From Symbiodinium sp. CCMP2592 (Eukaryota > Sar > Dinophyceae > Suessiales > Symbiodiniaceae): 64,000 nt of DNA. The stretch is taken from positions 220,094 to 284,093 of the forward strand of contig CAJNDT010002768.1 in NCBI GenBank assembly GCA_905221615.1. Reading direction: 5' to 3'. The first letter of the stretch is position 1. Each line of letters starts with the position of its first letter. Of the stretch, positions 10,738-57,375 are shown one piece after another. Under the pieces are notes generated by a model. That model did not search any database. It saw only the letters and a program-made list of their open reading frames with translations, and was not told where the DNA came from. Both the position numbers and the translations under genes were made by a program.

Positions 10738-11175
10738 TAAACCCCCAAATCCTACACCCTCAACCCCACCTAAACCCCCAAACCCCTAACCCCCTAAACC
10801 ATAAACCCCAAACCCCTAAACCCTAAACCCCCAAGTCCTAAACCCTAACCCCTAAACCCCAAACCCCTAAAGCCTAAACCCCAAAATCCTACACCCTAAA
10901 CCAAGGTTGTTCGGATGGATGGGACTCAAGGCTTTCGAAATGCCGTCGACTTGAGGGTCGAGGGTGGGTAGGGCTTATAGGGATTAGGGTCTAGGGTGCA
11001 GGGCTTAGGGGTTAGGGGTTTAGGGTTGTAGGATTATAGGATTCTAGGGCAGGGCTTAAGGCTTAGGGTTAAGGGTTTAGGGGTTTAGGGTTATAGGATT
11101 ATAGGGTTTAGGGGCTAGGGTGTAGGGTTTATGTTTTTTGGGTTTGGTAGGGTGCAGGGTCTAAAGGGGAAAGAG
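10738..11175. repeat. Head-to-head telomere-like arrays
   Basis: About 170 bp of degenerate CCCTAAA/CCCCAAA (10738-10905) face about 200 bp of degenerate TTTAGGG/GGGTTTA (10970-11170) across a short unique spacer. No gene. Confidence 0.65.
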
Positions 11176-14189: not shown

Positions 14190-15040
14190 GGTGTTGAAAC
14201 TGTTGAAGCAGTGAGCCGCAACGCGAGCATCATCAGCAACACTCTCCGATCTCGTGGCCTTTGAATCCCCAGCAGGAGCAGTTCCAATGCTTGGATGGAT
14301 TCCGTGAGCCGCAACGCGAGCATCATCAGCATCAGTTGGAGATCCTTTAAACCTATGGGACGGATTCAGCGAATCGCGACGCGAGCATCATCAGCATCAG
14401 CTGCACTTCCTTTCCACCTCTCTCTCCGATCTCCTGGAATTGGACTTCCTTTCCACCTCTTTCTCCGATCTCCTGGCCTTGGAATCCACAAGCAGGTGCA
14501 GCATGAGTGAGCCACAACACGAGCATCATCAGCTTCAGCTGGATGTCCTTGCCACCTCTGTCCGATGGCCGATGAACCCTCAGCAGGTAAAGGAGGCCAG
14601 GTGATTGGACGGACTCAGCGCCCGCAACGCGAGAATCATCGGCATCACCTGGATTTCCTTTCCACCCCTCTCTCTGATTTCCGCCCCCTGCAGGCAGCAG
14701 GTCGACCCACGCGCAATGCGAGCATCATCAGCATCAGCTGGATTCCCTTTCCGCCTTTCTCTCCGATCTCCTTGCCTTTGGGCCCCGGAAGGGTGCAAGA
14801 GTTCGACCCAATGATTGGATTGATTCAGTGAGCCGCATCGCGAGCATCATCAGCAACAGCGGGATTTCCTTTCCACCCTTCTCTCCGACCTCCTGTCCTT
14901 TGAAGCAGGTTCCGCTGTTCGACACAACAGCGAGCCACAACGTGAGCAGCATCAGTTTGATTCTCTTTCCTCCTCTCTCTCTGATCTCCTAGCCTTTGAA
15001 CCCCCAACAAGTGAAGTCCGACCCAATGATGGGACGGTTT
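14190..15040. repeat. Degenerate tandem satellite
   Basis: At least eight degenerate units, each with a GCGAGCATCATCAGCATCAG-like core near 14224, 14311, 14380, 14519, 14625, 14717, 14839 and 14941. Each core is followed by pyrimidine-rich 'CCTTTCCACCTCTCTCTCCGATCTCCT'-like sequence (shown here as family description; units vary). Core spacing ranges from about 70 to 140 bp. Several frames stay open across it on both strands only because of the repeat. Confidence 0.8.
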
Positions 15041-16176: not shown

Positions 16177-16187
16177 TATAGGGAAAC

Positions 16188-16412
16188 GGCAACGGAGATC
16201 ACAGGATGACGTAATTGGGCTCACTCTCGTTCACTTGCAGAAGCGCACAGAACGCTGTTTCGCTCGACCGCAGTGGTCGGATCCTGATGCCGTGGCTCTC
16301 AAAGGAAGGAGTCTACAAGCTCCAAGAAAAGGGGCCCCTTTACCTCGAGAGGTAACGGCCCACATGACACATGATGCACATGATGCGGCTGATGCGGAAT
16401 GTACAAGTTGCA
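16188..16412 (-). repeat. 3' LTR of element 1
   Basis: 225 bp, matching 28157-28381 at 224 positions. Termini are TGCAAC..GTTGCA in the other copy; here the outermost base is G (16188). On the coding strand the sequence just before it (16413-16424) reads TTTTGGGGCTGG, a weak candidate polypurine tract. Confidence 0.95.
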
Positions 16413-16439: not shown

Positions 16440-19400
16440 TCAAGTTGTGTCTTGCCACTTCGATCTCAAGTACTGATCAACACGACCAGTGGCCGTTCGG
16501 CCTTTCTTCTTATTCCGCTTAGCGGAAACAAAGTTGGGATCAAAGGCTATGCTCCATAGCCACGTCTTCAGAAATTTCAGTAGTCCAACTCTGCTATCAG
16601 CTCGTTTCTTTGTCATGGCATCGGCAAGGTCATAGTCGGAAGCCAACCAACGTAGTTCACATCGAACTCGCTTTAGATTGTCACGAAGTGCAAATGCTTG
16701 GAGAGCAGCACGCATGTTGGACAATCCAAGAAGCGGTGACTCATTCCGCTCCAATGCGTCGTAGCCGCCCTTCGAGTCCGTGCACAGTATGCCGCGTACT
16801 CGGGTCACCTGCTCTTCCTTGGTCTGCACAAGGTTAGACCGAAGTTCAGTGTCCCCTCCAGCTCCGTGCATCTCCGTCCACAGAAGACGAACTCTGAAGT
16901 TTTGATCTTCGGCCTCGTATACACTCTGGACTTCCGCGTCGTTGGAGCCCAGGGCCTTTCTTTGAAGTTTCCAAGTTCTCCATGACATGAGATTCATGGG
17001 GCAGACCTTTCCGTCGCCGGCTTCAGGGCCTGCGGCTAAGGTCAGAAGTCCTCCGGTGCTGTCACCTTTGGCCCTGTTGTTGTGCGCCTGGTCGCCCATG
17101 GAAATGAAGGTGATGTCTGACCAGTGCTTGGCAGTGGGAAACTTGAAAAATGACAGCTTAAAGGATTCCTGCCGAACTTCAGCAATCATGGCCTGGATCT
17201 CCCTGGCCGTCTGTAAGGTCCCAGATGCAACAGCTTCGGTAAGCAGCAGATTACATCTGCTGCACAGTTGCGGTTGGCTCTGCACCGCGAGCCACTGGAG
17301 AGCTCCCAGAGCCGTCCTGCACGCCGCCAGTTCTCGAGGAAGTAGAGGACCATCTTGTTGTAGTCGTTCGGCCTCGATGTCAATGTCTTCCAGGCCCTCG
17401 ATGTAGTACTCCTGGTCGACAACGATGCGCTTGAAGCCGCTCTTGTCCACCACGGTCGCAATGTCAGTGCCGGCATGTCGATACCGGCCCACTTTTGCCG
17501 TCCCCCACTTGTAGGCCTCGTCAATGCGCTGGCGGATGTCCAGCCACTCCTGGCAGCTTTTATCACCAATGCGGTGAAAGTCGTCGACGTGGCCACCCAT
17601 GGCGCCAATGACTCGCCGATGCGAGCCATCCCATTCCTTGTTGGAAAGCCATATCCAAAGGCATCGTTCACCCATGATGGCAATGGCGCCCAGGGCCGTC
17701 AGTTTCTGATGTAGGTCCAACCATAGGCCGCGTGGTGCGGTCGTCGACCCGTAGATATTCTTCATGATCTTCATAATGCCCTCTTCAGACACGCCGAGAG
17801 CTTGTCGAAGCTCCTCCACCCCAGAGGTGTAGAGGCCTTGATCAGCCTCGGTCGGCATTGTTTGAAGAAACGCCGTCGCCAGATCCAAGCCCTCTAAGTC
17901 CCACTGGTGGTGAGCTGCCATCAAGTACAGTAGGTTACGTCCCAGAGTGGATTGTACTGGCGAAGATGTCTTGAAGGACCTGTCCAGGAGATTCGGGTGC
18001 TGGAAGCCAAGCAACACAATCCTGGCCTTGGCCTTGCGTTGACCCTTGGAGTCATGAAGGGTGCTAGGATTCTCCTTCGCATCCTTCAGGGCCGCATCTT
18101 GATCTTCTGGTGGTACACCTTTCCACGTAAGGACCCACCTGGCGCGCATAATGCGCCCGCTGTCGTAGGCCTCACGGACTTCCCTGTCATCCATGCACTT
18201 TTGAACCGCCTCGTTCTGTATGAAGGAGTCCACCTCCTTCACCTTGGCTCGATGAAACAGCTTCCTCTCCTGATTGGTCAACTTCGCGATGTTGACTTCT
18301 GAATCCCTCATCTTCTTCACCAAGTAGGCCACAGGGTTGCGCTCAAGTCGTTTCTTTTGTCGATTGGATGTTGGGGGTTCCACATCAACCTCAATGCGGA
18401 GAAACTCCTCAACGTCTTCCATGGCAGTGTGTATGTCCAGGGATTTGTCCTCAGCCTGGGCATCGACATAGAGCTGATCCACCCAATCATCCACCTTGGC
18501 TCTCTTGGAATCCGGTTGGTCGTAATCATTGACTTCAGGAGAAGGATGTTCAGTAGGCATTGAAGTGGATGACGTCGCCGCGGGACCTTCATTGGCGGTT
18601 GTCGTTGTTGGTTCGGCTGCTGCTGGCTGTTTGCCTCGAACTCTGCGCGGTGGCCCTGCCGTAGTTGAAGCGTCTGGTTGTTCCGGAAGGTTGGGCATTT
18701 CAATCTCATCGGCGTCGGGCTCTTGATCGGTGATGTCCTGATATTCACGTCTAGGTAGAACATCTGCGAGGGTTCGCCAACGTGAAGGATCTTCCTCGCC
18801 GGAGGTCTCAAACTTGAACCGTTCCACTTCGTCCACGGGGCGAACGCTGTGAACAGAGCACCTCAGGAGTTGATGCCCAATGAGCACCCACACAACATGC
18901 TTCCGGTCGCCTTCATCAGACTGGTGGGGCAGCATCTCGTTGAAGATGACGCGTCCAGGACCCACCCAGTGAGGACGACCAGACTTTTTGAGGCCACCCC
19001 TGTTCCCAGAGTACTGCTCCTTTGGCCAAACCTTTCTCCATACCTTGACCAGAGTCATAGGTGGAAAGTCCCGTACAGGTTGTCGCACAATGGTATTGTT
19101 GAGCTTGGAAAGAACTCGTCGTGCTCGGGTGTGCCGAGCAATCTCCTCGGCCCTTTGCCTGGAAGCCACAATCTTGGCGTAGTCGTCCTTGGGATCACCG
19201 GTTGCAAACGACCGTAGGTCCTCATCGGTCGCACGGTGAGCTTTTCCAAAAGCCCATTGGTGTGCTGAGTAGCCCGCTGTGAACTCTGTCGCATTCAAGG
19301 CCGCCACGGTTAGCTGAAGAACAACTTCAGGAGGAAGTGCGGGGTCGTCTTGGCTGATAGCCGATGCGGTGTGCTTCACATCCTGGATGGCCGCCTCGAT

Positions 19401-20969
19401 GATGCCATTAGCCCACGGTTCCTTCTCTGCCACATAGTGCGTCATGACGTTGATGTCTGAGAAGAACTCTCCCACAGCCGCCGAGACAAAGGACTTGGCA
19501 CTGTCCATGATCACAACCTTCGGTTTGGGGTAGCATCCCAACCATCGCTCAGAGAAGGCCTTGATGAGGTCGCGCCCGGTTTCAGATCGCATTTCCAGGA
19601 AGTTGTACTCGAAGAGAGGCTGGACCACTCGTAGCTTAGTGGTCACATCAATGAACATGAGAAACTTCCACTTGATCCTCCTTCCTGGAGGTATCCACTC
19701 TCCAGAGTCCACCGCGACTGCCTCCCAAGCGCCGTACTGAAGGTGCGTGCTGATAGGTGGTACCTGTCCGGTCGAAATTCCTCCCGGTCGTAGGCTCGCA
19801 CAGGCCGGACAGTAGTGTTGTCGTGCGACCTGAACCTTCCAAGCGGGGTGGTTGGCATCCTGAACAATCTTTGCAAGGTTGCGATTGGTGGGATGCCCGG
19901 CCGCCTTGTGGAACTTAGAGATTTGGGCCTCCCAAGAACGATATTCCTCCTTGGTGACGCCGTCAGGGAGTTGTGGTAGATCAGGTTCCAAGGCAGTCGT
20001 GGGTGTTGCCGGTCTCAGCTCCATCTCCGCGGGATTAGCAACCATGGTGGCATCAACAATCAATGGGAAGCCAAGTTGACGTAGAAGGCTGCGGTCATCA
20101 TTTTGTAGTGATGGAGTCAACCGTGTGGTGTAGGCGGACACACTCAATCGCTGGCCTCGCCATGGTTCCGTCGCATGTAGTACATGAGGAGAAAACTGAA
20201 GTAGTTGATGACGAGATGGCCGGATGTGTCCACTCTGATACGTTCCATCTGGTAGTTGTCGCCTTTTTCGTTGGCCGGGTCCTTCACCAGCAATCCACAG
20301 TCCTCCGCCAGTGAAGTTGCCGGCGCAGGTGAGGATGTTGGTACTGTAACGTAGATTGTGGCTGTCCTTGTGAGGGATGGTGCCACTGTTGAGCCCAAGC
20401 AAGAGGCTCGACCATTGGTGTCCAGGTAGTTGATGTTGTAGGAAGGCGTTGACGTATTGAACGAGTTCTTTGTGACGGTATGTCACATTGGTGACTCCAG
20501 AGAAGGCTCCGTGTGAGTAGCCTCCGAGAAGAAGTCGAGCTCGAGTTCCCGAGGACCACCGATGCTGTTGACCCTCTTTGCGAGTCACCTTGGTGAGGAC
20601 CTGTTCTAATATGCTTTCCAAGGCTTCAAAAGAGAAGTTCTTCATCAGCCGTGCTTCTCGAGCCATGTTTTCCGAAACCAATCGCTCAACTTCAGACATG
20701 GTGAAGTCATCATAAACATCATCTTCTTCACGACAAGCTGGCTCGCCATGTTCCGTAAGAGGATCTTCTGGAGTGGTCTCCGGTTCCGGTTCCTGTAGAT
20801 CACACAGTGAAGGAAGATCATCAGCACGGGCTAGTAGTTGATGATGTCGCTGAGGAACAAGGCGATCGCACCAGTGGCGGGTGATCGCTTGAACCATCCG
20901 CCAGGGGTAGTAGGAGATGACGTCCTGCTGTCGGGAAAGATGGCAGTGGCGATGGTTTCCTGGACACAC
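16440..20969 (-). CDS. Oxygenase-like/integrase/RT/RNase H polyprotein part of element 1
   Basis: 1509 codons counted from a GTG at 20969; the frame is really a continuation of the Gag-protease ORF (from 20984). Residues 195-280 look like a 2OG-Fe(II) oxygenase double-stranded beta-helix: H200-K-D202-S-H-N, F-T-G-G-G-L-W at 219-225, and H265 followed nine residues later by R274 in H-A-T-E-P-W-R-G-Q-R-L-S. Integrase zinc finger: H354, H359, C387, C390. Integrase core: D421, D489 and E525, with the D-x35-E spacing of copia. RT: L-D-L-A-T-A-F with D1029, and H-V-D-D at 1127-1130. RNase H acids: D1293, E1346, D1398 and D1450. The stop lies 27 bp from the 3' LTR. All catalytic residues are kept, so these enzymes could be active if expressed from an uninterrupted copy. 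Confidence 0.92.
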   Translation of the reverse strand: MCPGNHRHCHLSRQQDVISYYPWRMVQAITRHWCDRLVPQRHHQLLARADDLPSLCDLQEPEPETTPEDPLTEHGEPACREEDDVYDDFTMSEVERLVSENMAREARLMKNFSFEALESILEQVLTKVTRKEGQQHRWSSGTRARLLLGGYSHGAFSGVTNVTYRHKELVQYVNAFLQHQLPGHQWSSLLLGLNSGTIPHKDSHNLRYSTNILTCAGNFTGGGLWIAGEGPGQRKRRQLPDGTYQSGHIRPSRHQLLQFSPHVLHATEPWRGQRLSVSAYTTRLTPSLQNDDRSLLRQLGFPLIVDATMVANPAEMELRPATPTTALEPDLPQLPDGVTKEEYRSWEAQISKFHKAAGHPTNRNLAKIVQDANHPAWKVQVARQHYCPACASLRPGGISTGQVPPISTHLQYGAWEAVAVDSGEWIPPGRRIKWKFLMFIDVTTKLRVVQPLFEYNFLEMRSETGRDLIKAFSERWLGCYPKPKVVIMDSAKSFVSAAVGEFFSDINVMTHYVAEKEPWANGIIEAAIQDVKHTASAISQDDPALPPEVVLQLTVAALNATEFTAGYSAHQWAFGKAHRATDEDLRSFATGDPKDDYAKIVASRQRAEEIARHTRARRVLSKLNNTIVRQPVRDFPPMTLVKVWRKVWPKEQYSGNRGGLKKSGRPHWVGPGRVIFNEMLPHQSDEGDRKHVVWVLIGHQLLRCSVHSVRPVDEVERFKFETSGEEDPSRWRTLADVLPRREYQDITDQEPDADEIEMPNLPEQPDASTTAGPPRRVRGKQPAAAEPTTTTANEGPAATSSTSMPTEHPSPEVNDYDQPDSKRAKVDDWVDQLYVDAQAEDKSLDIHTAMEDVEEFLRIEVDVEPPTSNRQKKRLERNPVAYLVKKMRDSEVNIAKLTNQERKLFHRAKVKEVDSFIQNEAVQKCMDDREVREAYDSGRIMRARWVLTWKGVPPEDQDAALKDAKENPSTLHDSKGQRKAKARIVLLGFQHPNLLDRSFKTSSPVQSTLGRNLLYLMAAHHQWDLEGLDLATAFLQTMPTEADQGLYTSGVEELRQALGVSEEGIMKIMKNIYGSTTAPRGLWLDLHQKLTALGAIAIMGERCLWIWLSNKEWDGSHRRVIGAMGGHVDDFHRIGDKSCQEWLDIRQRIDEAYKWGTAKVGRYRHAGTDIATVVDKSGFKRIVVDQEYYIEGLEDIDIEAERLQQDGPLLPRELAACRTALGALQWLAVQSQPQLCSRCNLLLTEAVASGTLQTAREIQAMIAEVRQESFKLSFFKFPTAKHWSDITFISMGDQAHNNRAKGDSTGGLLTLAAGPEAGDGKVCPMNLMSWRTWKLQRKALGSNDAEVQSVYEAEDQNFRVRLLWTEMHGAGGDTELRSNLVQTKEEQVTRVRGILCTDSKGGYDALERNESPLLGLSNMRAALQAFALRDNLKRVRCELRWLASDYDLADAMTKKRADSRVGLLKFLKTWLWSIAFDPNFVSAKRNKKKGRTATGRVDQYLRSKWQDTT

Positions 20970-21017
20970 TTTGGCACGGAAGGCCTTGTGAAAGGAGAGG
21001 TGTCACGAGTGGGTTTT

Positions 21018-21545
21018 TTCGAACTCGAATCTTTGAGAGTTTGAACGTAGTACATGTTGGACGGGATTCGAGAGTTTGAAAGTTTGAAAAGTTTGGAGAA
21101 TGAAGAGTTTGAAGTTTGAAAGTTTGAGAGTTTCGAGTTCGAAAGCTGGCGCGAGTTTGGAACTTGAAAATTTGAAACCCAGGGAATTTGAAAGTTTGAA
21201 GCCTCGAAGATTGAAAGTTCGAAAGTTTGAAAAGGAGAAGGACCGCTGGAGACGCGTAGGGGTTCACAGAGCAGCCCTCAGGCTCGAGTTCGAAAGTTTG
21301 AGAGCTTGGAGTTTGAAAGTTTGAAACCCAGGAAGTTTGAAAGTTCGAAAGCTTCGAAGACTGAAATATCGAAAATTTCAAACTTTGGGGGGTTGAAGGT
21401 TTGAAGTTTTCAAATTTCGAAAGTTTGAAAGTTTGAGAGCCGTGGAGTTCGAAAGTTTGAGATGCTCAAAGTTTGAGAGTTTGGGAGTTTGAAGGTTTGT
21501 AAGTTTGAAGAGTTTGAAGTTTGAATACATTGAAAGTTTGAGTTT
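21018..21545. repeat. Left arm of foldback element: GTTTGAAA array
   Basis: Dozens of degenerate GAAAGTTTGA, GAGAGTTTGA and TTCGAAAG units. In protein frames this gives Phe-Lys-Leu-Ser-Asn-Phe-Gln repeats, which are artefacts. Confidence 0.9.
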
Positions 21546-21639
21546 GAAACCATGTTGACGTCCTCATCTTAGGGTCTGGGCCCGGTAACTCCGAGTCCGA
21601 TTCAATAGCCCGGGACCCCCCCGGGCGAACGGGTAGTCC

Positions 21640-23170
21640 TGGATTTAGGAAGAGGATGAGGGGGGGGGGTGGGCCTGCAGTCCTGGATTTAGGAAGACTA
21701 TGAAGGGGGGCGGTTGTTGTTCTGGATTTAGGAAGACCATGGGGGGGCGGGGGGGGGGGCGGCTTGGAGTCTTCGGCGAACCCCACCGCTCTGTTTAGAC
21801 TGCAAACGCCCCGCTCTGCTAAGCCGCGAAAAAAATTAATGAAAGCGTCTCCCACTTCATACTTCACCAAAAACCAGGATTACGAGCCCCCCCAACCTCA
21901 TACTTCGTCCAAATCCAAGACTTCGAGCCTCCCCCTTCCCCTTACAGTCTTCCTACAACCAAGATGTTAAGCCCCCCTTTCTCCAACACACGCAAAGGAG
22001 AAAGCAACACGAGAACGCTTCAGGGGGTTAAACGCGAAGAATTAAAATTCATCATGAGTGATTCAGAAGCTGTGCAAATGGAGGTGCTCTCTTAAGATCC
22101 CCCTCCCCTGATACGTCGTCCAAATCTAAGACGTCGAGGCGTCCCCTTACAGTCTCCCTGAATCCATGACTTTAAGCCCCACCTTTCTCCAGCACACACA
22201 AAGGAGAAAACAACACAAAAATGCTTCAGGGGGCTAAACGCGAAGATCAAAACTTAAGCATGAATGATTTGGAAGCTCTGCAAGGGGCTGCGCCCCCCCA
22301 ACCCCCTTCTTGTTTTGGACTGCAAACTCCCTGCTCTGTTAAGCCGCAAAAAAATAAAAAAGTAACCCCTTCATACATCACCAAAAACCAGATTACGAGC
22401 CCCGCCCCCTCATACTTGGTTCAAATCCAAGACTCGAGCCCCCCCCAGTCTCCAACACACACAAGGGAGAAAGCACACGAAAACGCTTCAGGTGGATTAG
22501 AAGCGAAGAAGATATCATGAATCATGAGTGATTTTGAACCTCTGCAGATGAGGGGGGGGGGGGCTGCGCCCCCCAACCCCCCCTCGCTTATTTTAGACTG
22601 CAAGCGTACTTCACCCAAAACCCCCCTTCTTTCATGAATGATATGGAAGCTCTGCAAATGGGGGGGGGGGCTGCGCCCCCCCCCCCAACCCCCCGCTGTT
22701 TTTAGACTGCAAACTCCCCGCTCTCTTAAGCCGCGTTTTCTCCAACACACACAAACGAAAAAACAAAAAAAAAAACAGACGAAAACGCTTCAGGAGGGTT
22801 AAAAACGAAGAAAAGAGCATTATGATCATGAGTGATTTGGAAGGTGATTTGGAGGACTAGGTACTTCACCCAACCCCAGTGATTTGGAGGACTACTACTT
22901 CACCCAACCCCCTCTCTCATACTTCGCCCAGATCCAACACTACAAAGCCCCCCTATCATATTTCACCCATGAGCCCCTCGCCACCCCCCGACTAGTACCA
23001 CTAGTCGCCGGGAAAAGTCTTCTCCAAGACACACAAAGGAGAAAGCCACACGAAAACGCATCAGGGGGGTTAAAAGCGAAAATAATATTCATGTTGGGTG
23101 GTTCGGAAGCTTTGCAAATGGAGGGGGAGGGGGGGGATGCGCTTTTAGACAGCAAACTCCCCTTTTTTTT
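21640..23170. repeat. Central repeats of foldback element with G/C-run hairpins
   Basis: A degenerate module repeats about five times. Its marker GCTTCAGGGGG occurs near 22019, 22222, 22484, 22788 and 23056 (spacing about 200-300 bp). Each module has 'CACACACAAAGGAGAAA', then 'GAGTGATTTGGAAGCTCTGCA', then in several copies a G-run followed by CTGCGCC and a C-run, which forms a very stable hairpin. 'TTTAGACTGCAAACTCCCC' follows. No protein reading survives. Confidence 0.75.
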
Positions 23171-23189
23171 TAAGCCGCGAAGAAATGAA

Positions 23190-23510
23190 CCAAAACGTCC
23201 TTTGGGCGTGCTTGAGATATACCGTGAACTAGAATCGCCAAAAGAGAAGGCGTGTGTAAGATGTAAAATTAACCGAAAGCGCCAAATGAGTAAGCGTAAT
23301 ACGACAAATACGATGACCCGGAAAAGCTAAATGAGGGGTGTGCTTAAGATCGCCAACTCAAGGGGTGCGTTTAAGTTACACGGTGTGCTGGAATCGCCCA
23401 ATGGGAGCGTAATAAAGATATGTGGTGAGGGGCTATGATGACCGGAATCGCAAAATGAGGGCGCAGTGAACCGGAATCGCCAACAGAGAAGGCGTGTTTG
23501 TTCCAGATAC
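23190..23510. repeat. Short degenerate repeats in foldback element centre
   Basis: Five or more copies of an about 35-60 bp unit around 'GGAATCGCCAAATGAG' and 'GGCGTG'. No gene. Confidence 0.6.
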
Positions 23511-23554
23511 TTAATTGGGGTTGCGAACGCCACCCATATACGTGACCGCATGTC

Positions 23555-24267
23555 GAGCGCTTCAAACTCTGAAACTTTTCAAACTCGAACTTTCAATCTG
23601 TCAAACTCTCGAACTTTCAAGCTCGAAACTCGGCGGACTTTCAAACTTTCCATCTCTACGCACTTCAAACCTTCAAACTTTGCAAACTTTCAATCTTTCG
23701 AACTCTCAAACTCGCGAACGTTCATCCCTTTCAAACTTTCGATCTCTGAAACTTTCAAACCTTCGAACTTGAAACCTTTCGAAGTTTGAAACCTTCGAAC
23801 TTTCAAACTCGTCACCTCAGCCCAAGCCGAAGAGGAAATCTGAAGCCAATCTGAAGCCAACCTTTCAAACTCCGAACTTTCGAACTTTCATTCTTTCGAA
23901 CTTTCGAGCTTTCAAACTTTCGAACGTTCGAACTTTCAAAGTTTGAAACCGTCGAACCTTCGAATTTGCAAACTTTCAAAGTCTCAAACTCTCAAACTTC
24001 GAAGGCCGATCGAACTCGCCCGCGGGAAAAGTTTGAAGTTTGAGTTTCAAGCAGTCAGTCGAGCTCGAAAGTTCGAGAGTTCGAGAGTTTGAAAGTTTGA
24101 AAGTTTCGAGTTTGAAAAGTTCGAAGTTTGACGCCGGCTAGCTTGTGCACACCAAGGTGCACAAACTTTCGAACTCCTGCACTTTTCGAACCTTCAAACC
24201 TTTCAAAGTTTGAAACTTTCAAGCTTCAACCTCCAAACTTTCAAACTTTCAAACCTTCGAGTTCGAA
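23555..24267. repeat. Right arm of foldback element: TTTCAAAC array
   Basis: Mirror orientation of the left arm (CTTTCAAACT, TTCGAACTTT units), with a short internally inverted patch at about 24030-24125. The arm is about 700 bp against about 530 bp on the left. Confidence 0.9.
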
Positions 24268-27200
24268 CGACCTCGCTCGGGACACCATTCTTGTGAAAGC
24301 CTTCATCGGTTGTCTTAATGGTCCACTTCTTTTGGATGAACGCAGACTCATCGGAGTTCTTCAAGCCGTAGTTGCAACCATCGACTCGGCAGGTGAGCCA
24401 GGGAATATGTTTGGAGTCCATGTAGTCGCTGAGATCGATCATGGGGTGTTGCTTCCAGCCATTGCTTGGATGAGGCCACTCATAGTAGATCTCGATATCC
24501 GGCGTCTCCTCCAAGGCCTCCTTGATGAAGCAATTCACATGCCACAACATTCGCCTTTCCTTTCGACGATCGGACTCCAGTCGTTCCTGTCGCTCCGCGC
24601 GGTTGTAGTCGATGTTGTTCCACGGACACCATTTGGAGTAGGGCAAGGAGAACCACACTCGCAAGGGACGATGTCGTTGTCGTAGAGATCGTAGTTGGTC
24701 CCAGGTAGCTGTCTTGTACAAATCGTAGCCCGTTTGCAGATTGATACTCCTGGGTCGGAGTCCGTGCTGCTCAGCGGCCTGGCTCAGCCAGTTATGTGGA
24801 GAGGCTGACACTTCCCAGAGTCCATCACGATCATGTAGATGTAGACCCATCAGCAGCGAGCTCGTCGCTGCTGTCATCATGGTCGCAAAGGCCATCACTC
24901 GCTTACCCATGGTGTTGGTGCACGGCCGCCAACTCTGATCTACCCTTGGTACTCCTGAGCGTAGGCTGCCGCCAGATCGTTGCCCTGATCGTCCTGCATC
25001 ACAGTCCAACTGGTGGTTGATGCCGCTTCCGGGCTGCTCGTCTGGACGTAGCCCTGAGGATCCAGGGGAGTCGTTGGCGAAGGCACCGTCGTAGGAGTCG
25101 ATGGAGTTGCCGTTGTCGTTGTCGTGGGATTGGCCGCGATGTGCTCCGTGATGGCGGTGCGCAAGACCTCCTCCGCATCGATCTTCCGCTGCATGTGGCG
25201 GCAAATGGTTGCCGTCGGCTTCCGGCCCTGCATAAGGGGCCGAAGTTCCTCCAACATCCTCTTGACCATGCCCGGGTTCTTCGTCTCCGTCGACTGAGCA
25301 TGTGACCCCACTCTGGGTATGTACTGGAGCCTCAGGTCGCAGACGGCACAGTGGGTCCACTGGCCGTGTGCATTCGAAGCGGACCGATCGGGTAGATGTC
25401 GACCTTGACATGGCCAAGTCTCCTGAGAGGCACGGGGATCGCGGGTGTCCGCAGTGACGGCCCGCGCCGGGTCGAGCGGGCGAGCTTTCGCCTTTGCCTT
25501 CGCTTTCGGCGCTGTGGCGCCGTCCAACTGGAACAGCTGAGGGGTCGTCATCGCCGCCATCAAGCTGTGAACGCGAGGAAGAAGTAGTCGGGAGATTGGG
25601 GGCAGCAGTTGCCCTGCACATCTGAGCTGAAGAAGCTGCTGTGGGTGAACTGCGCTGTAGCTCAAGCGACCTTTGATGCAACTGCCAGATCCTATCACGT
25701 GATACGGCCAATTGTTCATCGGTGACATGGTCTGTGGCAGTCATGTCAAACCATGCAGTGGCGAGCTCAAGCGTGTGGTGCTCCAGGTAGGGCTGATTGT
25801 TCTGGGGTTTACTGTGAACTACAACATGAGCTTGCCCATCCAAGTTGGTACATCCTTGGGTGAGGTACTGCGCAATGTCCAAGACATAGTGGCCCTTCTT
25901 ATTGGTTTCGAGGCTGTAGATTTGGGGCGAAGGGTCCTTGGAGTTCATGGCAAGTCCCGTCCCGAAGTCAATAATCATTCCCACACCCTGGGGTCCCAGA
26001 AAGTCCATGCCAACCAAGACGGGGACCAATGACGACTTGTCGAAATGACTAGAGTAGTACTCGGAGGGATTCGGTAGGGTGTACAATGAGAAACTTCGGA
26101 GGGAACCCGACACGCTAGATGACAAAGTGGTTCTTCCAAGGGCCTTGCTCCACTTCCCATTGCCAAACCTGAAGAAGGGACGAGCGTATTGCGCCAGTTC
26201 GATGCGTGCCGAGCGATCACACTGGAGAACCGTCTCTATGAGACTCTTCACAACAGCCTCGGGTGCCGCTGAGGCGGTTGCGCCGCTGTCGAGCATTCCT
26301 TTCCGCGGATCAGAGGAACTTGTCGTAGGCGAGGTAGTGGATTCCAGGGCTTCGGACACCTCGAGGCCACCTAAGAAGAGGTCACTGGAGTAGGCATTGA
26401 CAGAGCGGGACGTAGGATCTTTGGTCTTGCCCTTGCCCTTGCCCTTTTTCCCCATTGCGTAGGATTCCATCCAGTAGCCCTTCTTTCCCTTCCCGGAAGA
26501 GTGACCTTTGTGCTTGCCCTTGCCGATGAAGTAATCCTCGATGTGCTGGTAGTAGCCCTTCTTCCCCTGACCCTTGGATCGACCCTTCCATGACTGTTGA
26601 GGACAATCACGAAGCAGGTGTGGGCCATTGCAGTTGTAGCAGCGAGGTCCAGAAGCCATGGAAGCATTGGCTCCGAACCCCCGGTCTCGACGCAAGGCCT
26701 GGGTGGCCTTCTGGGCCTCTGTCCACGATCGCCTTGCCTCAACTGCCAGTTGCTCCGCAATCTGCTCCGCCTGCTGGGCCTCGCGAAGCTTCTCATCGTC
26801 AGGAGGAGGTTCAGCAGAAGTCGCCTGGTAGGCGAGGTCCTCCTGAGCGTCCCAGCCATTCCAGCTGGAGTAGTCGTCCCAGTCGGCAAGGTAGGCTTGC
26901 TCGTCCCACCAATCAGCTTCGTTGTCCCACCAGTCATCAGCGGGATAGTCCTGGTAGAAGAGGTCGGGGTCCTCGATGTTGGACGCCATGGCCTGGTAGG
27001 ACTGATGGTGCCGGTGTCGCTGTCCTAGCAGTTGTTCGTCCCAGAGGCCTTGAAGAGCCTGGGATACGGTCTCATAGTCGAGGCTGTTTCGCGTAGAAGA
27101 AAGTATATCACGAACTTCTTCTGCACTCAGCCCCGCAGCTTGCAACAACCGCCAGCCACGTAACACGCTCATAATGAAGGAATCCGCAACAGACAGCTCA

Positions 27201-27949
27201 TCGATGGGTCGAGGCGCTGCTTGTCCCAGCGAAGGTGCCTGAACTCTGCTGCCAGTCTCTACTCGCTCATCGCCAGCCGCTGTTTCCCTGTGACTGGGAG
27301 ACGAACCAGTAGCGCCGCGATGAGGTAGCCGTGAATCGTCAGGAACGGGAGATTCAGGGCCTTCGCCTTGTGCCTCACGCTCGCCTTGCGGTGAATCAGG
27401 GTCGCCGGGGGGACCATCTCGCTGGTCCTCATCATTCTCATTCTCGCCATACCACCACCAGCTGCCGTCCTGCCATTCTGCATCTTCCCAAGACTCAACA
27501 GGGGGCAATCCGAAATCCCTGTCGGCTTGGCTAACCCCAAGCTTCTCTTCATGAAGCCTGATCAAGGCTTCTGTGAACTCTTCATGCACCAAAGTCTCGC
27601 GCACCAGGAAGTTTCCCATGGTTTCACCTGGTGAACGTTTGAAGCTGAAGTACTGCTGACAGATCGCGGCGGCATTCGGAAGCGTCCTCCTCACCAGTGG
27701 CGAAGTTGCCAACTGTTGGAGAAAGCGAAGAGTGCCGTCCTCTGCGTCAAAAGGTGCCCGGCTCCACGACATGGCCAACAGTCTTGCTGGCCCTGTGAGC
27801 CGGCTCATGAGCTTCGACGCACAGTAGCGCCGTTTGTAGGTGGGTGTGGCCTGCACGAACCACGCCACCTCCCGCGTGTATCTTCTCCAGCCGCGGGCTG
27901 CACCGTCCCACGATGGTACATGGCCGCCGGCCTCCTTGCTGTCCGCCAT
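24203..27949 (-). CDS. Gag-protease polyprotein part of element 1, with methyltransferase-like segment
   Basis: 1248 codons starting at ATG 27949, about 207 bp after the 5' LTR. Residues 1-135 are a helical, Gag-capsid-like region. 335-366 are Trp/Asp/Tyr-rich. A zinc knuckle is seen at 437-449, C-x2-C-x3-H-x4-C, one residue shorter than the standard spacing. 455-510 are Gly-Lys-rich, suited to RNA binding. The aspartic-protease motif L-D-S-G-A-T has its Asp at 554. From 1046 a Rossmann-like stretch (V-S-A-S-P-H-N-W..) is followed by S-L-P-Y-S-K-W (1101) and Y-Y-E-W-P (1155); these sit where C5-methyltransferase motifs I, IV (PCQ) and VI (ENV) would, but the catalytic Cys is Tyr. Residues 1-1220 belong to the retroelement; the last 28 come from the inserted foldback element. 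The frame looks atypical at about 780-1010, where another frame reads better. Confidence 0.85.
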   Translation of the reverse strand: MADSKEAGGHVPSWDGAARGWRRYTREVAWFVQATPTYKRRYCASKLMSRLTGPARLLAMSWSRAPFDAEDGTLRFLQQLATSPLVRRTLPNAAAICQQYFSFKRSPGETMGNFLVRETLVHEEFTEALIRLHEEKLGVSQADRDFGLPPVESWEDAEWQDGSWWWYGENENDEDQRDGPPGDPDSPQGEREAQGEGPESPVPDDSRLPHRGATGSSPSHRETAAGDERVETGSRVQAPSLGQAAPRPIDELSVADSFIMSVLRGWRLLQAAGLSAEEVRDILSSTRNSLDYETVSQALQGLWDEQLLGQRHRHHQSYQAMASNIEDPDLFYQDYPADDWWDNEADWWDEQAYLADWDDYSSWNGWDAQEDLAYQATSAEPPPDDEKLREAQQAEQIAEQLAVEARRSWTEAQKATQALRRDRGFGANASMASGPRCYNCNGPHLLRDCPQQSWKGRSKGQGKKGYYQHIEDYFIGKGKHKGHSSGKGKKGYWMESYAMGKKGKGKGKTKDPTSRSVNAYSSDLFLGGLEVSEALESTTSPTTSSSDPRKGMLDSGATASAAPEAVVKSLIETVLQCDRSARIELAQYARPFFRFGNGKWSKALGRTTLSSSVSGSLRSFSLYTLPNPSEYYSSHFDKSSLVPVLVGMDFLGPQGVGMIIDFGTGLAMNSKDPSPQIYSLETNKKGHYVLDIAQYLTQGCTNLDGQAHVVVHSKPQNNQPYLEHHTLELATAWFDMTATDHVTDEQLAVSRDRIWQLHQRSLELQRSSPTAASSAQMCRATAAPNLPTTSSSRSQLDGGDDDPSAVPVGRRHSAESEGKGESSPARPGAGRHCGHPRSPCLSGDLAMSRSTSTRSVRFECTRPVDPLCRLRPEAPVHTQSGVTCSVDGDEEPGHGQEDVGGTSAPYAGPEADGNHLPPHAAEDRCGGGLAHRHHGAHRGQSHDNDNGNSIDSYDGAFANDSPGSSGLRPDEQPGSGINHQLDCDAGRSGQRSGGSLRSGVPRVDQSWRPCTNTMGKRVMAFATMMTAATSSLLMGLHLHDRDGLWEVSASPHNWLSQAAEQHGLRPRSINLQTGYDLYKTATWDQLRSLRQRHRPLRVWFSLPYSKWCPWNNIDYNRAERQERLESDRRKERRMLWHVNCFIKEALEETPDIEIYYEWPHPSNGWKQHPMIDLSDYMDSKHIPWLTCRVDGCNYGLKNSDESAFIQKKWTIKTTDEGFHKNGVPSEVVRTRRFESLKVWRLKLESFKL
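24940..25728 (-). other. Alternative-frame segment of the element 1 polyprotein
   Basis: 262 codons open in another frame, overlapping residues of about 740-1003 of the main Gag-protease frame. It reads like real protein: a basic A-K-A-K-A-K-A-R patch, a W-T-H-C-A-V-C-D-L-R-L-Q-Y-I-P-R cysteine motif, a helical L-E-E-L-R-P-L-M-Q-G-R-K segment and Thr/Pro-rich linkers. In contrast, the main frame over the same DNA is Gly/Ser/Arg/His-rich and shapeless. The simplest reading is two compensating frame changes, by mutation or sequencing error, with this the ancestral frame. A real recoding event cannot be excluded. Confidence 0.45.
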
Positions 27950-28144
27950 GAAGAAAAACTCGAGAACGAAGTCAAACTCAAAAGAAAAGAGAAGAGGCAG
28001 TGCCGCTTCACGGAACCACCTGGAGAAAGCCTGTCAGAGCACTTGACAGGTGAGCTGTGCGCGAGTCGGGCTGACGCTGCCAGTCAGCTAAGATCACAGA
28101 AGAGCACAGATCAACGGCAGCTGGCACCCTGGAGCAGAACTCTG

Positions 28145-28156: not shown

Positions 28157-28381
28157 TGCAACGGAGATCACAGGATGACGTAATTGGGCTCACTCTCGTT
28201 CACTTGCAGAAGCGCACAGAACGCTGTTTCGCTCGACCGCAGTGGTCGGATCCTGATGCCGTGGCTCTCAAAGGAAGGAGTCTACAAGCTCCAAGAAAAG
28301 GGGCCCCTTTACCTCGAGAGGTAACGGCCCACATGACACATGATGCACATGATGCGGCTGATGCGGAATGTACAAGTTGCA
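28157..28381 (-). repeat. 5' LTR of element 1
   Basis: 225 bp with perfect 6-bp inverted ends TGCAAC/GTTGCA. It would contain the element's promoter and transcript start. No convincing TATA box could be picked out on the coding strand, which is not surprising for dinoflagellates. Confidence 0.95.
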
Positions 28382-28386
28382 GAAAC

Positions 28387-32461: not shown

Positions 32462-34120
32462 GCCCTATAGCAGTCTACGGTTTAGGAACTTTGGGCTTCA
32501 GGGTGCAGGTTTAGACCGGTTTGGTGCTTCGTCTATATTTGCTTGTCTATGTTTTGGGCGTAGGGTTATGGGTGTCCGTACTGTTTGCTCAGGTGATTAA
32601 AGCATATGTAAAGGTTGTAGTATGTGTAAGTTTAACTGTTTAGACATATCACCAATGCTATCCGTTCCTTTTCGCCTTGCAATCCTAGACAATGCACGCT
32701 GCAATCCGAAGCATCCTGCCTCCAAGACCCTGACAAACAGGGCCTTAATACTAAGGTTTCGGGATGTAATGCAACCCAAAACCCAAAACCCAAAACCCTA
32801 AACCCTAAGTATATGCTGATTTACGGGAGGCCTCAACTTAAACCGTCGAGACTGGCCTGAGACAGCCTCAGGCCGCTGTGGTACGTAGGGTTTAGTGCAG
32901 ATCCTTGGTACAAGAAACTACCTATCTCCACGGGTCCGAATATCGGGATCCATATTAAAGCTATATTTAAGATTAAGGTAGGGGGATCTTAGTCAGTGGT
33001 CTGCTTGACGATAAGGCATAAGGCATAGCCTGATACGAATACTAAATGTCTTGCAGTCTTGCACTCATAGTACGTATACAGCATAGGGTAGATGGACCTA
33101 AACCCTAAACCCTTAAACCCTAAACCTTAAACCCCTAAACCCTTAAGCCCTAAAACCTTACACCCTAAACTCCAAACCCTAAAAGCTTAAAAAACCCTCG
33201 ACCCTAAACCAGTAGCACAGTCTCAAAGCCTCTTGGGTCGAGGAGGGCAGATGTTGAGCTCTTGACTTTGGCTTTGGGGCTACATGTGGCGGCCCTAATA
33301 ATTAGAATAGGACTTTTTTGGGGGAGTTCTTGATTCTACCTGATGATAACAATATAAAAGTATAAAAGGCCCTAAACCCTGTTCTAATTATTAAGGCCCC
33401 TATTATATCATGTTTTTGGTTTGAAGGGCTTCAGGACCAGATGCAGGGCTTCTTTCCCTTCCCAGCCGGCATGGGCCAAAGGCTCCGCGCAAAGGAACCG
33501 AGGGCTTTCTCGCGACTTCTAGGCATGTCCCTGAGTAACCCCTTTATAATAAGGGTACCCTTTTTCCTACTCTTTGTTTTTAATAAAGGGACCCTAAACT
33601 AAAAAGTGCAAAAGGGTAGTACTCAGGAACCTAGAAGATGTTGCGGCTTTTCGGTCTGAGGTTTCTTCGGATTCTTCGGTTTTCCGAGAGTTTAGCTTGG
33701 AGGGCAAAGTGTTTAGGGTGTGTTGGTGCTTTTGCGCGGTGGTTGGGCGCTCACACTCTTAACTAGACTCGACACAAGTCGACATGACCTTAAACTCCAA
33801 TCACACCGTAAACCCTAAACCCCGCAATGCTAAACTCTGCGCGAAAACCAAAACCAAGCCTGCCAAGCTTCAGCTTTAAGACCCTAAAGCCCCGCGGTCC
33901 GTGACACGCCTCAGGGCGCAACAGCCGGAGCACCTAAGTCGAGGCGCTCAAATGTACTTCTATCGGCTCCGGGCTCCCGAAAGGGGCCTAGGGTTTAGGG
34001 TTGAGCTCCAGTTACTTAAATAGAAGGCTTCCGGGTTACATAAGGTGTGCTGAGAAACCTCCTGTTTCGGTAACTCGCGCCCTGGATTACTGTTGGTAGA
34101 CCTGCCTGTTGACATCGCAG
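32462..34120. other. Non-coding stretch with telomere-like tract and decayed inverted repeats
   Basis: Degenerate CCCTAAA at 32778-32806 and 33098-33215. A decayed family N relative spans about 33286-33404. An inverted repeat with 'CCTGAGTAACCCCTTT' and 'AGTACTCAGGAACCT' ends spans about 33530-33632. No gene seen. Confidence 0.45.
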
Positions 34121-35017: not shown

Positions 35018-35284
35018 TAAACAGTTCAATCAGATGCGGTTTGGTTTAATACGCACCTGCGCAAGACATGTCAGCAGGAATAGCACCACAAAAACACCAC
35101 GTCGACTGTTCCTATCCATGACAGCTGCTGGCCGGTCCCGAGATTTGAACTTAAATCACACATACCAAAACTGCTGAATTCAAAACCTTGAATGCCTGGA
35201 AGCTCTAATGCCAAAACTGAAACCCGAATGCTACATGCCCCAGTGCTTCAAGCCCACCCCGTAGGCCCTCGCCCTTGAGCCCCC

Positions 35285-35396
35285 AATCCTAGTTCCCCAA
35301 ACCCCAAACCCTAAACCTTAAACCCTAAACCCTAAACCCTAAACCCTAAACCCTAAACCCTGAACCCTAAACCCTAAACCCTAAACCCTACTCCGA
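35285..35396 (-). repeat. (CCCTAAA)n interstitial telomere-type tract
   Basis: About fourteen heptamers, most perfect CCCTAAA, the longest clean run in the window. A short opposite-orientation run (TTTAGGG) follows at 35680-35720. Confidence 0.9.
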
Positions 35397-42431: not shown

Positions 42432-42662
42432 ACCCTAAACCTAAACCCCAAACCCAAATTCTGCAACCTGACGCCTCAACCCTAAACCCTAAAATCCTAC
42501 AATCCTGCACCCTAAACCCGAAAACCCTAAACCAAAAAATGCTTAAACCCTAAAAACTAAACTCTGAACAAACTACACCCTAAACCCTAAACTCTAAACC
42601 CTACACCCTAAACCCGGAAACCCTAAACCCTAAACTTCTACACCCTAAACCCTAAACCCCAC
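42432..42662 (-). repeat. Degenerate CCCTAAA array
   Basis: About 230 bp of CCCTAAA with frequent one-base variants (CCCTACA, CCCGAAA). The opposite orientation follows at 42778-42945 with TTTTGGGCTT variants. Confidence 0.8.
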
Positions 42663-50225: not shown

Positions 50226-51650
50226 TTATCTCAGATTTGGATCCAGGTTTGGATCATAGGCTCGAGCGTAGACGTTCGGATGTGGCTCATCCGGGTCTGA
50301 GTGATCTTCTTCGGAACTTGAGAAGATTCCGAGTAATCTGTTCTCAGCCCTGGTGAAGGCGGCGTCTGCAGTATCATATCCATGGTTGGATGTTGTCGCC
50401 TTTGGCTCGGCCTTTGAAGCAGCTTGTGAGCTGACTGGAGTTGCCTTGGCTTTTGCCGGTTGCGGCTGCTTAGCCTTTGCCCGTTCAGCCCTTCTTCTTT
50501 CAAGCTGTCCGTCTGAGGACGCCCATGATCTTTCACTTTCATCTCCTGAAGGAGATAAGGCGTGGGCATAGAGGCTATTCCAGTACTGTGGTGCAGAAGG
50601 AGTTAGGACTTCTTCATTGTCAGATTCTGACTGGTCTTCCTCAGAGCTTTGGTCGTCAAAGAGTGTCTCGAGGACATTTTTGAGATTGTTATTTCTTCGC
50701 TCTATCTCTAGTGAGGAATGGACCAATTGGTTAAAGACTGTCCTTGAGTCCTTCAGTGCTGTTAGAAGGATTTCCACTCTGGATAGAGTATCTTGGATGG
50801 TGTCAAGATGTTCCTTTCTTTCCTCCTTGTCTCTCTGGATAGAGCCTCGCAATGCTTGTGCGATTCTGAGGAGGTCTGTGTATTTCGCAAGAGGCATAGT
50901 TACCGTTTGATTGTCATGTATGACAGTTGTTTCGTCGCCGCTTAAGTTCCTGAATAGGACTTCCACGACTGGTAGGAACTCCGTGCTCCACGGTTCCTCT
51001 TCATCATATGTTTCTACGTGCTGTAGCACGCGTTGTGTAAACTGGCCGGCTGCTTCTACCGTTGCATCGATAGAGCTGACGTGTCTTGCTACTATGTTTC
51101 GGCACGTAACGTTAATTGCCTGGCCTTGATTGGCTTCGTCAAGTGCAGCGTCTGCATAGGTGCAGAGTCCACTGTTGTGGGCTTCTCTAGCTGCCTTTCG
51201 TTGAATGCGCCGATTTTGACCTCCTCTTCTGGTAGGACCTTTTGGTCTTGGAGGATCAGAAGGTACTGTTCCTTTCGCCTTTGGCGGAGGACTCTTAGGT
51301 GGAGGTGACATGTTTGCCTTGTTAGGCCCTGGTGGCATTGCCTTGGGCGCTGATGACGATGCGGCACTTGAGAGTGCAGATGTACCTCTGGCTTTTGCCG
51401 AAGATCCCTTGGGGATCGATGTATAGGTAATCTGCATGGCTTCTTCGGCCATTTGTGCATGCAAGGCATCCTTGAATAATTGTGTCATGTGAGGAGTGTT
51501 ACTTGCATCATCGTAGGTCTGGAAGCGCTCAATGTCTCTTTCGGTGCCACGTGGTCGTGTATCACCTCTTTGGAAAGGATCGTTCCTGCGAATCTCCGCA
51601 ACTTGTACTGCATGGAGGCAGTTTTTGCACAGCACCTTCCTTGCAAACAT
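50226..51650 (-). CDS. Element 2 second coding region, part c (coiled-coil C-terminal part)
   Basis: 474 codons. It starts with F-A-R-K-V-L-C-K-N-C-L-H-A-V, which looks like the continuation of the Cys motif at the end of part b. Then come basic Pro/Lys-rich linkers (about 85-150) and a helical region (about 160-345), whose second half (S-I-Q-R-D-K-E-E-R-K.. to about 345) has heptad-like spacing typical of coiled coil. The tail is acidic and Ser-rich. No enzymatic motif. The 89-base overlap with part b and the split of a Cys motif suggest a +1 frame change rather than a separate gene. Function unknown; an assembly or structural role is possible. Confidence 0.6.
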   Translation of the reverse strand: MFARKVLCKNCLHAVQVAEIRRNDPFQRGDTRPRGTERDIERFQTYDDASNTPHMTQLFKDALHAQMAEEAMQITYTSIPKGSSAKARGTSALSSAASSSAPKAMPPGPNKANMSPPPKSPPPKAKGTVPSDPPRPKGPTRRGGQNRRIQRKAAREAHNSGLCTYADAALDEANQGQAINVTCRNIVARHVSSIDATVEAAGQFTQRVLQHVETYDEEEPWSTEFLPVVEVLFRNLSGDETTVIHDNQTVTMPLAKYTDLLRIAQALRGSIQRDKEERKEHLDTIQDTLSRVEILLTALKDSRTVFNQLVHSSLEIERRNNNLKNVLETLFDDQSSEEDQSESDNEEVLTPSAPQYWNSLYAHALSPSGDESERSWASSDGQLERRRAERAKAKQPQPAKAKATPVSSQAASKAEPKATTSNHGYDTADAAFTRAENRLLGIFSSSEEDHSDPDEPHPNVYARAYDPNLDPNLR

Positions 51651-57151: not shown

Positions 57152-57375
57152 TACGGCACGATGACCAAACGGGATCAGGAATGCTTGGTTAGCTCAAAAG
57201 GCTGGTTGCTGTGAGGCTCGAGGCTGAAAGCGGCTGCGGATGATACAGAACATATAGTTCTCATGAACATGTCCGATCTTGATGAAAACGCAGCCTGCAG
57301 ACACAAATTTTCTTTTAGACGAAAAACAGTCTAAATAGAAAATCCAGCACATGGTTGTGCTACCAGCAAACAAGA
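57152..57375 (-). other. Gap between the two coding regions of element 2
   Basis: 224 bp without a long ORF. It could hold an internal promoter or splice-leader acceptor for the second region. Nothing specific is recognisable. Confidence 0.4.

Follow-up and report, generated by a model that had tools for sequence, protein, structure and literature searches.

The window analyzed here is a stretch of 64,000 nucleotides from the dinoflagellate Symbiodinium sp. CCMP2592 (assembly GCA_905221615.1, contig CAJNDT010002768.1, positions 220,094 to 284,093 of the forward strand), and its segment 16183-28386, read on the minus strand and including the target-site duplication, is a Ty1/copia-type long terminal repeat (LTR) retrotransposon. 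The LTRs are identical, the duplication GAAAC lies on the outer side of each (16183-16187 and 28382-28386, the single base 16188 separating the left GAAAC from the identical LTR block), the integrase precedes the reverse transcriptase, and the reverse transcriptase is of the copia type by domain order and catalytic residues. The element shares with Ty1/copia retrotransposons the order Gag-protease-integrase-reverse transcriptase-RNase H, short LTRs and a 5-bp target duplication, and is unlike ordinary members in having two additional domains between protease and integrase (Table 1). One is a conserved stretch designated here the MT block; the other, positioned directly before the integrase and inside the pol open reading frame (ORF), is a predicted Fe(II)/2-oxoglutarate (2OG) dioxygenase domain with affinity to the TET/JBP family, and is the main subject of this report.

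Table 1. Features of the copia-type element (window coordinates; residues are those of the stop-to-stop pol ORF).
Feature	Position	Strand	Basis or detail
5' LTR (upstream in element orientation)	28158..28381	-	100% identity to 16189-16412 over 224 bp
ORF 1: Gag, CCHC knuckle, protease, first part of MT block	24203..28033	-	ORF list, Pfam, motif reading
CCHC zinc knuckle (weak) in ORF 1	26597-26644	-
Protease motif DSGA in ORF 1	about 26273-26290	-
Cys/His-rich conserved coding stretch, frame differs from ORF 1	24940..25740	-	codon model and relatives
MT block, N-terminal part	24290..24853	-	W-E...P-H...GYDLY...W-F-S-L-P-Y-S-K-W...Y-E-W-P...C-R-V-D-G-C
Foldback insert within MT block, between both ORFs	20995..24289	.	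direct repeat and inverted ends
ORF 2: MT block end, 2OG dioxygenase, integrase, reverse transcriptase, RNase H	16440..21002	-
MT block, C-terminal part	20823..20993	-	C-P-G-N-H ... Y-Y-P-W-R-M-V; matched in 17/20 loci
Predicted Fe(II)/2OG dioxygenase domain, TET/JBP affinity	20058..20573	-	Pfam Tet_JBP, own-genome profile, 61-row alignment
H-K-D-S-H-N, predicted iron ligands H211 and D213, N216	20355..20372	-	residues 211-216
HATEPWRGQR, predicted iron ligand H276, predicted 2OG-binding R285	20148..20177	-	residues 276-285
Integrase	18813..19940	-	H-H-C-C finger from residue 365; D500, E536, 35 residues between them
Copia-type reverse transcriptase	17133..18335	-	HVDD at residue 1138
RNase H with acidic motifs	16503..17132	-	codon model and matches in loci
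3' LTR	16189..16412	-	224 bp, 100% identity to 5' LTR

A preliminary description, made from the letters of the window alone, had called a 2OG-Fe(II) oxygenase from the motifs H-K-D-S-H-N, GGGLW (at residue 232) and HATEPWRGQR; all three are present, the first at residues 211-216 and not, as then given, at 200-205. Alignment of 61 such domains from the genome revealed that D213, N216 and H276 are conserved in all 61, and H211 and R285 in 60 each, at a mean column conservation of 0.45. The complete H-D-H-R set is found in 59 of the 61, and its loss from most copies, named beforehand as the outcome that would speak against the call, was thus not seen. Conserved H-x-D...H iron ligands followed by a later arginine are the signature of the 2OG-Fe(II) superfamily. 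The two altered active sites (L083 and L094; first His to Arg and Arg to Lys) both sit on long branches of the domain tree. A profile built from the genome's own copies, the window sequence included, scores the window domain at 223.5 bits, and the pattern H-x-D...GGxLW occurs once in the window, a uniqueness of no evidential value because the pattern was derived from the window sequence itself.

The domain is abundant in the host genome. Upon searching the assembly (1,098,105,373 bases in 5383 contigs), all of the 150 places that were scored, out of 4901 first-look candidates and with the window's own place among them, matched the 2OG domain at E 7.8e-24 or better, and 149 of the 150 carry it free of stops. 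From these places 20 loci of about 10 kb and 40 short loci were picked by hand; the long loci are mostly nearest relatives, so counts drawn from them are not those of a random sample. In 16 of the 20, all nine stretches of the window element are matched in the identical order Gag-protease-MT-2OG-integrase-reverse transcriptase-RNase H, which confirms the domain order in other elements of the same genome. The gag, knuckle/protease and MT stretches of ORF 1 are matched jointly in 16 loci and the integrase stretch in 18; a single ORF of 2780-2896 amino acids surrounds the domain in 12; and LTR pairs of 118-299 bp are found in 17, 15 of them at 100% identity and two at 99.5-99.6%. Among the remaining loci, L047 is matched from the MT block's end onward and nowhere before it, in L058 the MT and knuckle/protease matches are missing, and L059 and L060 match in the 2OG domain only; L058-L060 are copia elements by Pfam RVT_2, and the MT profile finds no match in them. 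In the tree of the 61 domains, the window's domain and those of the 17 loci with its element type are gathered in a supported set of 22 rows (98/85), the other four rows of which (L061, L062, L098, L099) are places with an MT match just upstream; the 18 rows labelled beforehand as the window's element type do not form one clade (five changes). The copia polyprotein frames of L059 and L060 (G000 C502 and C2669) run to 4665 and 4848 amino acids and have CCCH zinc fingers ahead of the 2OG domain, and more than 12 frames of 4843-4855 amino acids occur among the 150 scored places.

The ratio of nonsynonymous to synonymous substitution rates (dN/dS) was calculated for the 21 pairs of 2OG domains with dS between 0.02 and 1.2, several of which share sequences. 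It is 0.05-0.45 in 20 of the 21 pairs, with a median of 0.196. In three element pairs, two of them with few changes, the domain gives 0.07-0.10 against 0.02-0.12 for integrase and reverse transcriptase. The copies were retrieved by similarity, which biases the sample towards conserved ones. The dioxygenase domain is under purifying selection, holds a fixed place in related elements and is present in divergent copia lineages.

As to the family of the enzyme, Tet_JBP was the sole Pfam family to match the piece of the window that holds the domain (the match spanning pol residues 182-291), with E-values of 6.7e-4 for the whole ORF and of 1.1e-5 to 2.5e-5 for pieces of it (2.5e-5 for a piece of 220 residues); none of eight shuffled controls and not the one reversed control matched it, the best control match being to another family at E 0.035. 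The relatives were scanned singly at E <=0.1 as a set of 45 (the 61 domains minus near-duplicates and L098, which has a stop); Tet_JBP matched 19, PF13640 (2OG-FeII_Oxy_3) four, and three unrelated families one member each, making five families in total. Tet_JBP scores are 24-25 bits for the window (24.5 being the best of the 45 relatives) and 29.6 bits at best in the genome, where a search with Tet_JBP found four places among 150 scored, none above the cut-off and all four scoring 80-97 bits as members of this very domain family. In the Protein Data Bank (PDB), TET2 chains carry HRDLHN and HATTP...TRISLVFY, which we take to be the iron and 2OG sites, where the window has HKDSHN and HATEP...QRLSVSAY (HATEPWRGQRLSVSAY). 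A designed beta-trefoil, the sole PDB match of the single-domain sequence search, was judged a chance match.

Several results weigh against reading the domain as a TET/JBP-like dioxygenase kept by selection. No family member reaches the Tet_JBP cut-off of 34.9 bits; the lowest single Pfam E-value among the relatives, 2.2e-6, belongs to PF13640; one of the 21 dN/dS pairs stands at 1.05, at a dS of 0.95; and single-sequence AlphaFold prediction of the window domain alone gave a mean confidence (pLDDT) of 34.0 and no usable fold. When the domain profile was compared with the PDB, the top chains were 8jkk, named a JBP1/TET domain protein, and 7vpn (CcTet), at E 1.2-1.3, barely ahead of unrelated caspase chains at E 1.5-1.6, so that this ranking is a hint and not a result. 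With Tet_JBP below its cut-off and the structural ranking a hint, we assign the domain to the 2OG-Fe(II) superfamily and credit it with an affinity to TET/JBP, not with membership, the predicted enzyme class being well supported. The oxygenase call of the preliminary description is thereby upheld by the Pfam matches, the near-invariant active site and the motif-level similarity to TET2; its leaning towards TET/JBP gains from the same Tet_JBP matches and TET2 motifs and falls short at family membership, the window scoring 24-25 bits against 34.9 and PF13640 claiming four of the 45 relatives.

The second additional domain, the MT block, has a mean column identity of 65% in 16 sequences, and a genome search with it gave 441 candidates, of which 150 were scored and 132 matched, many of these weakly. 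In another lineage an MT block (22% identity, E 1e-4) stands in frame with the 2OG domain (C4944, 1793 amino acids; C2, 975 amino acids), and a related stretch in a second copia element of the window (hhalign E 3.1e-5; Smith-Waterman score 78, with 2 of 1000 shuffles scoring as high) leads us to regard the block as a shared domain. It had been described as resembling a C5-methyltransferase, and its motif order does resemble that of a methyltransferase. Of that description the real conserved domain stands, but the C5-methyltransferase identity, the writer half of its suggestion that the element may write or erase base marks, is not supported: Pfam matched none of 16 members, PHROGs and NCBIfam gave no match, and nothing convincing came out of the PDB, where the single sequence reached E 1.3 at best and the profile a C-type lectin at E 0.071. 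Alignment by hhalign to five phage C5-methyltransferases and M.HhaI, a test of low power given the small alignments, reached E 0.1, a value also obtained with 2 of 10 column shuffles. The sole candidate site for the catalytic Pro-Cys of motif IV holds Cys in 7 of 17 sequences, Phe in four, Gly in three and Tyr, Ser and Pro in one each, the window residue being Tyr (TAC). The MT block is, by its sequence, a second conserved domain not recognizable as a C5-methyltransferase, and it may assist the oxygenase or direct it to its target.

Judged by its LTRs the window copy is young, but an insertion and apparent shifts of frame in the Gag ORF have left it broken; neither the splitting of the MT block by the insert nor the displaced frame figured in the preliminary description. 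The insert that splits the MT block, a foldback element, measures about 3.3 kb and has arms of TTTGAAAG-type repeats; a 10-bp target duplication, CTTGTGAAAG, flanks it at 20985-20994 and 24290-24299, and its inverted ends lie near 20999-21048 and 24237-24286. A portion of the Gag ORF, somewhere in residues 764-1031, is apparently out of the ancestral frame: the codon model favours an alternative frame most clearly at about 25.46-25.16 kb, and the alternative-frame product of the Cys/His-rich stretch matches 17 of the 20 long loci. Conserved coding sequence in a frame other than that of ORF 1 argues for two compensating shifts in the window copy. In G000 C763, the contig of L047, some 33 kb separate the two parts of an MT block (53654-54192 and about 87377), as though a further element had likewise suffered an interruption within this block.

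Elsewhere in the window, the second copia-type element (57376-63999, minus strand; RVT_2 E 5.4e-17, no 2OG match) carries its MT-related stretch after the integrase, at about 60610-61302, and is accompanied by ORFs at 50226-57193 on the minus strand, of which the one at 53447-57193, beyond the element, encodes a B-box zinc finger, right on its cut-off at E 4e-5, and shows faint similarity to Tpt1/KptA (E 0.068). This element exceeds the RVT_2 cut-off of 31.6 bits; the first element matches RVT_2 at 25 bits (E 1.7e-5), under that cut-off, and the two are 24% identical in the reverse transcriptase region (E 8.8e-21). Telomere-like CCCTAAA tracts are scattered through the window (for example 681-805, 10759-10912, 33093-33181, 35254-35355 and 42448-42661), and a 61-nt repeat occupies 14310-14990 in eight diverged copies with a common GCGAGCATCATCAGC-like start. 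The Rfam scan of the window gave no match at the gathering threshold. A 21-mer that we take to be the dinoflagellate spliced leader has 429 exact matches in the genome (217 forward, 212 reverse; none for the reversed control), which marks the host as a dinoflagellate, and is absent from the window with up to three mismatches allowed.

The intact active site across related elements hints at nucleic-acid editing for the elements' own benefit. Being encoded in the polyprotein beside the integrase, the dioxygenase probably travels in the particle, where the protease would free it or leave a dioxygenase-integrase fusion. With Fe(II) and 2-oxoglutarate it would hydroxylate a pyrimidine methyl group (of thymine or 5-methylcytosine) or a related base, in the element cDNA, in target-site chromatin or in the element's own copies. 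From the TET/JBP affinity and the host chemistry we infer a DNA base methyl group as the likeliest substrate, RNA and proteins also having been considered. The purpose of dinoflagellate 5-hydroxymethyluracil (hmU) is debated. Li and colleagues, going by the title of a 2024 PNAS paper, reportedly link a dinoflagellate 5-hydroxymethyluridine enzyme to the silencing of transposable elements. The base has been mapped in dinoflagellate DNA, most repeats of Breviolum minutum being enriched in it according to PMC11071213. Given that enrichment and that reported link, evasion of host base-mark silencing would be a reasonable benefit to the element. We give about even odds to the proposal as a whole, namely a TET/JBP-affine dioxygenase in a copia polyprotein, kept by selection and acting on nucleic acid against base-mark silencing; against it must be set that substrate, protease release and counter-silencing go beyond the sequence evidence. 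Only tentatively do we suggest the more specific version, a first retrotransposon-borne TET/JBP-type base oxygenase, packaged beside the integrase with a second partner domain and rewriting thymine, hmU or 5-methylcytosine on cDNA or at the insertion site.

Other functions would fit a 2OG domain. PF13640 includes prolyl-4-hydroxylase-type enzymes, in which an H-x-x-x-P-W-x-G-x-R end also occurs, and its four matches, with the lowest E-value of the set among them, would suit a protein hydroxylase acting on Gag, integrase or a host protein. Tet_JBP, however, matches 19 of the relatives and the window's own domain, the genome-wide Tet_JBP search arrives at this same family, and H-x-D-x-H-N with its invariant Asn agrees with TET2; a protein hydroxylase is accordingly unlikely, though worth keeping in view. 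An RNA demethylase clearing methyl marks from element RNA has a model in the AlkB-type domain of an orchid Ty3/gypsy element, a 2OG domain of an LTR element with N6-methyladenosine (m6A) demethylase activity measured in vitro (PMC9289625), but the AlkB-type family PF13532 is absent from the five families matched by the 45 relatives (E <=0.1), and the orchid domain is a separate Gypsy ORF, not part of a copia polyprotein before the integrase, and we regard this reading as rather unlikely.

The same chemistry could also serve self-marking, in which the element would place hmU on its new copies, mimicking resident repeat chromatin or aiding insertion into hmU-rich DNA. The enrichment on Breviolum repeats and the adjacency of dioxygenase and integrase are consistent with this; the product and location of the mark are, however, inferential, and such marking would be costly if hmU silences elements, as the Li title implies, and we think it improbable. 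That the motifs arose by chance in an unconstrained spacer might be suggested by the single-sequence Pfam score under the curated cut-off, but is refuted by the examined copies, with all four residues in 59 of 61, dN/dS mostly well under 1 and 149 of 150 places free of stops, and its likelihood is close to nil.

Relatives of the 2OG domain outside the genome were found neither in viral contigs nor in bacterial and archaeal genomes or phages, and those of the MT block and reverse transcriptase not in viral contigs, nor those of the reverse transcriptase in plasmids, in scans that reach close relatives only. A pattern search of viral contigs returned 32 loci, 24 of which encode the peptide pattern, none with H-x-D-x-H-N upstream. 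No report of a 2OG or TET/JBP domain in a dinoflagellate copia element was found among the papers listed in literature searches, which leaves absence unproven; dinoflagellate proteomes may well hold such sequences without annotation.

Base-modifying and related enzymes are known from other mobile elements. The DNMT retrotransposons of Symbiodinium and the charophyte K. nitens (de Mendoza 2018, PMC5890265) share with the present element a presumed base-modification enzyme carried by retroelements, dinoflagellate ones included, and differ in encoding recognizable cytosine methyltransferases, unlike the MT block; according to the same source the Copia elements of Symbiodinium have no DNMT domain, whereas PMC12344493 places some DNMT3 members within Copia and DIRS elements. 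The nearest retrotransposon precedent is the AlkB-type 2OG-dependent dioxygenase ORF of Phalaenopsis orchid Ty3/gypsy elements (PMC9289625). There, too, an LTR retrotransposon has acquired a 2OG-Fe(II) domain, but it belongs to a Gypsy element, forms an ORF of its own, and is AlkB-like and active on m6A in RNA. The angiosperm survey in that source confines 15 extra domains to Gypsy-type elements, with none in Copia-type ones.

A close TET/JBP parallel is found in fungal DNA transposons (Kyakuja, Dileera, Zisupton, EnSpm, Helitron and others; Kojima 2025, PMC12730594). These mobile elements, too, encode a dioxygenase bearing the 2-His-1-carboxylate set, their frames are mostly undisrupted, and escape from silencing has been proposed for them. 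They are fungal DNA transposons, whereas the domain described here lies in a dinoflagellate copia polyprotein and matches Tet_JBP below the cut-off; no TET/JBP-encoding retrotransposon was among the fungal elements surveyed there. Should abundant retrotransposons indeed carry a selected base oxygenase, the hmU mark could be tested as part of the conflict that sets mobile elements against the genome. If the reading is true, the hmU chemistry of dinoflagellate DNA would be part of an arms race between host and elements, and capture of TET/JBP-type enzymes would extend from fungal DNA transposons to LTR retrotransposons.

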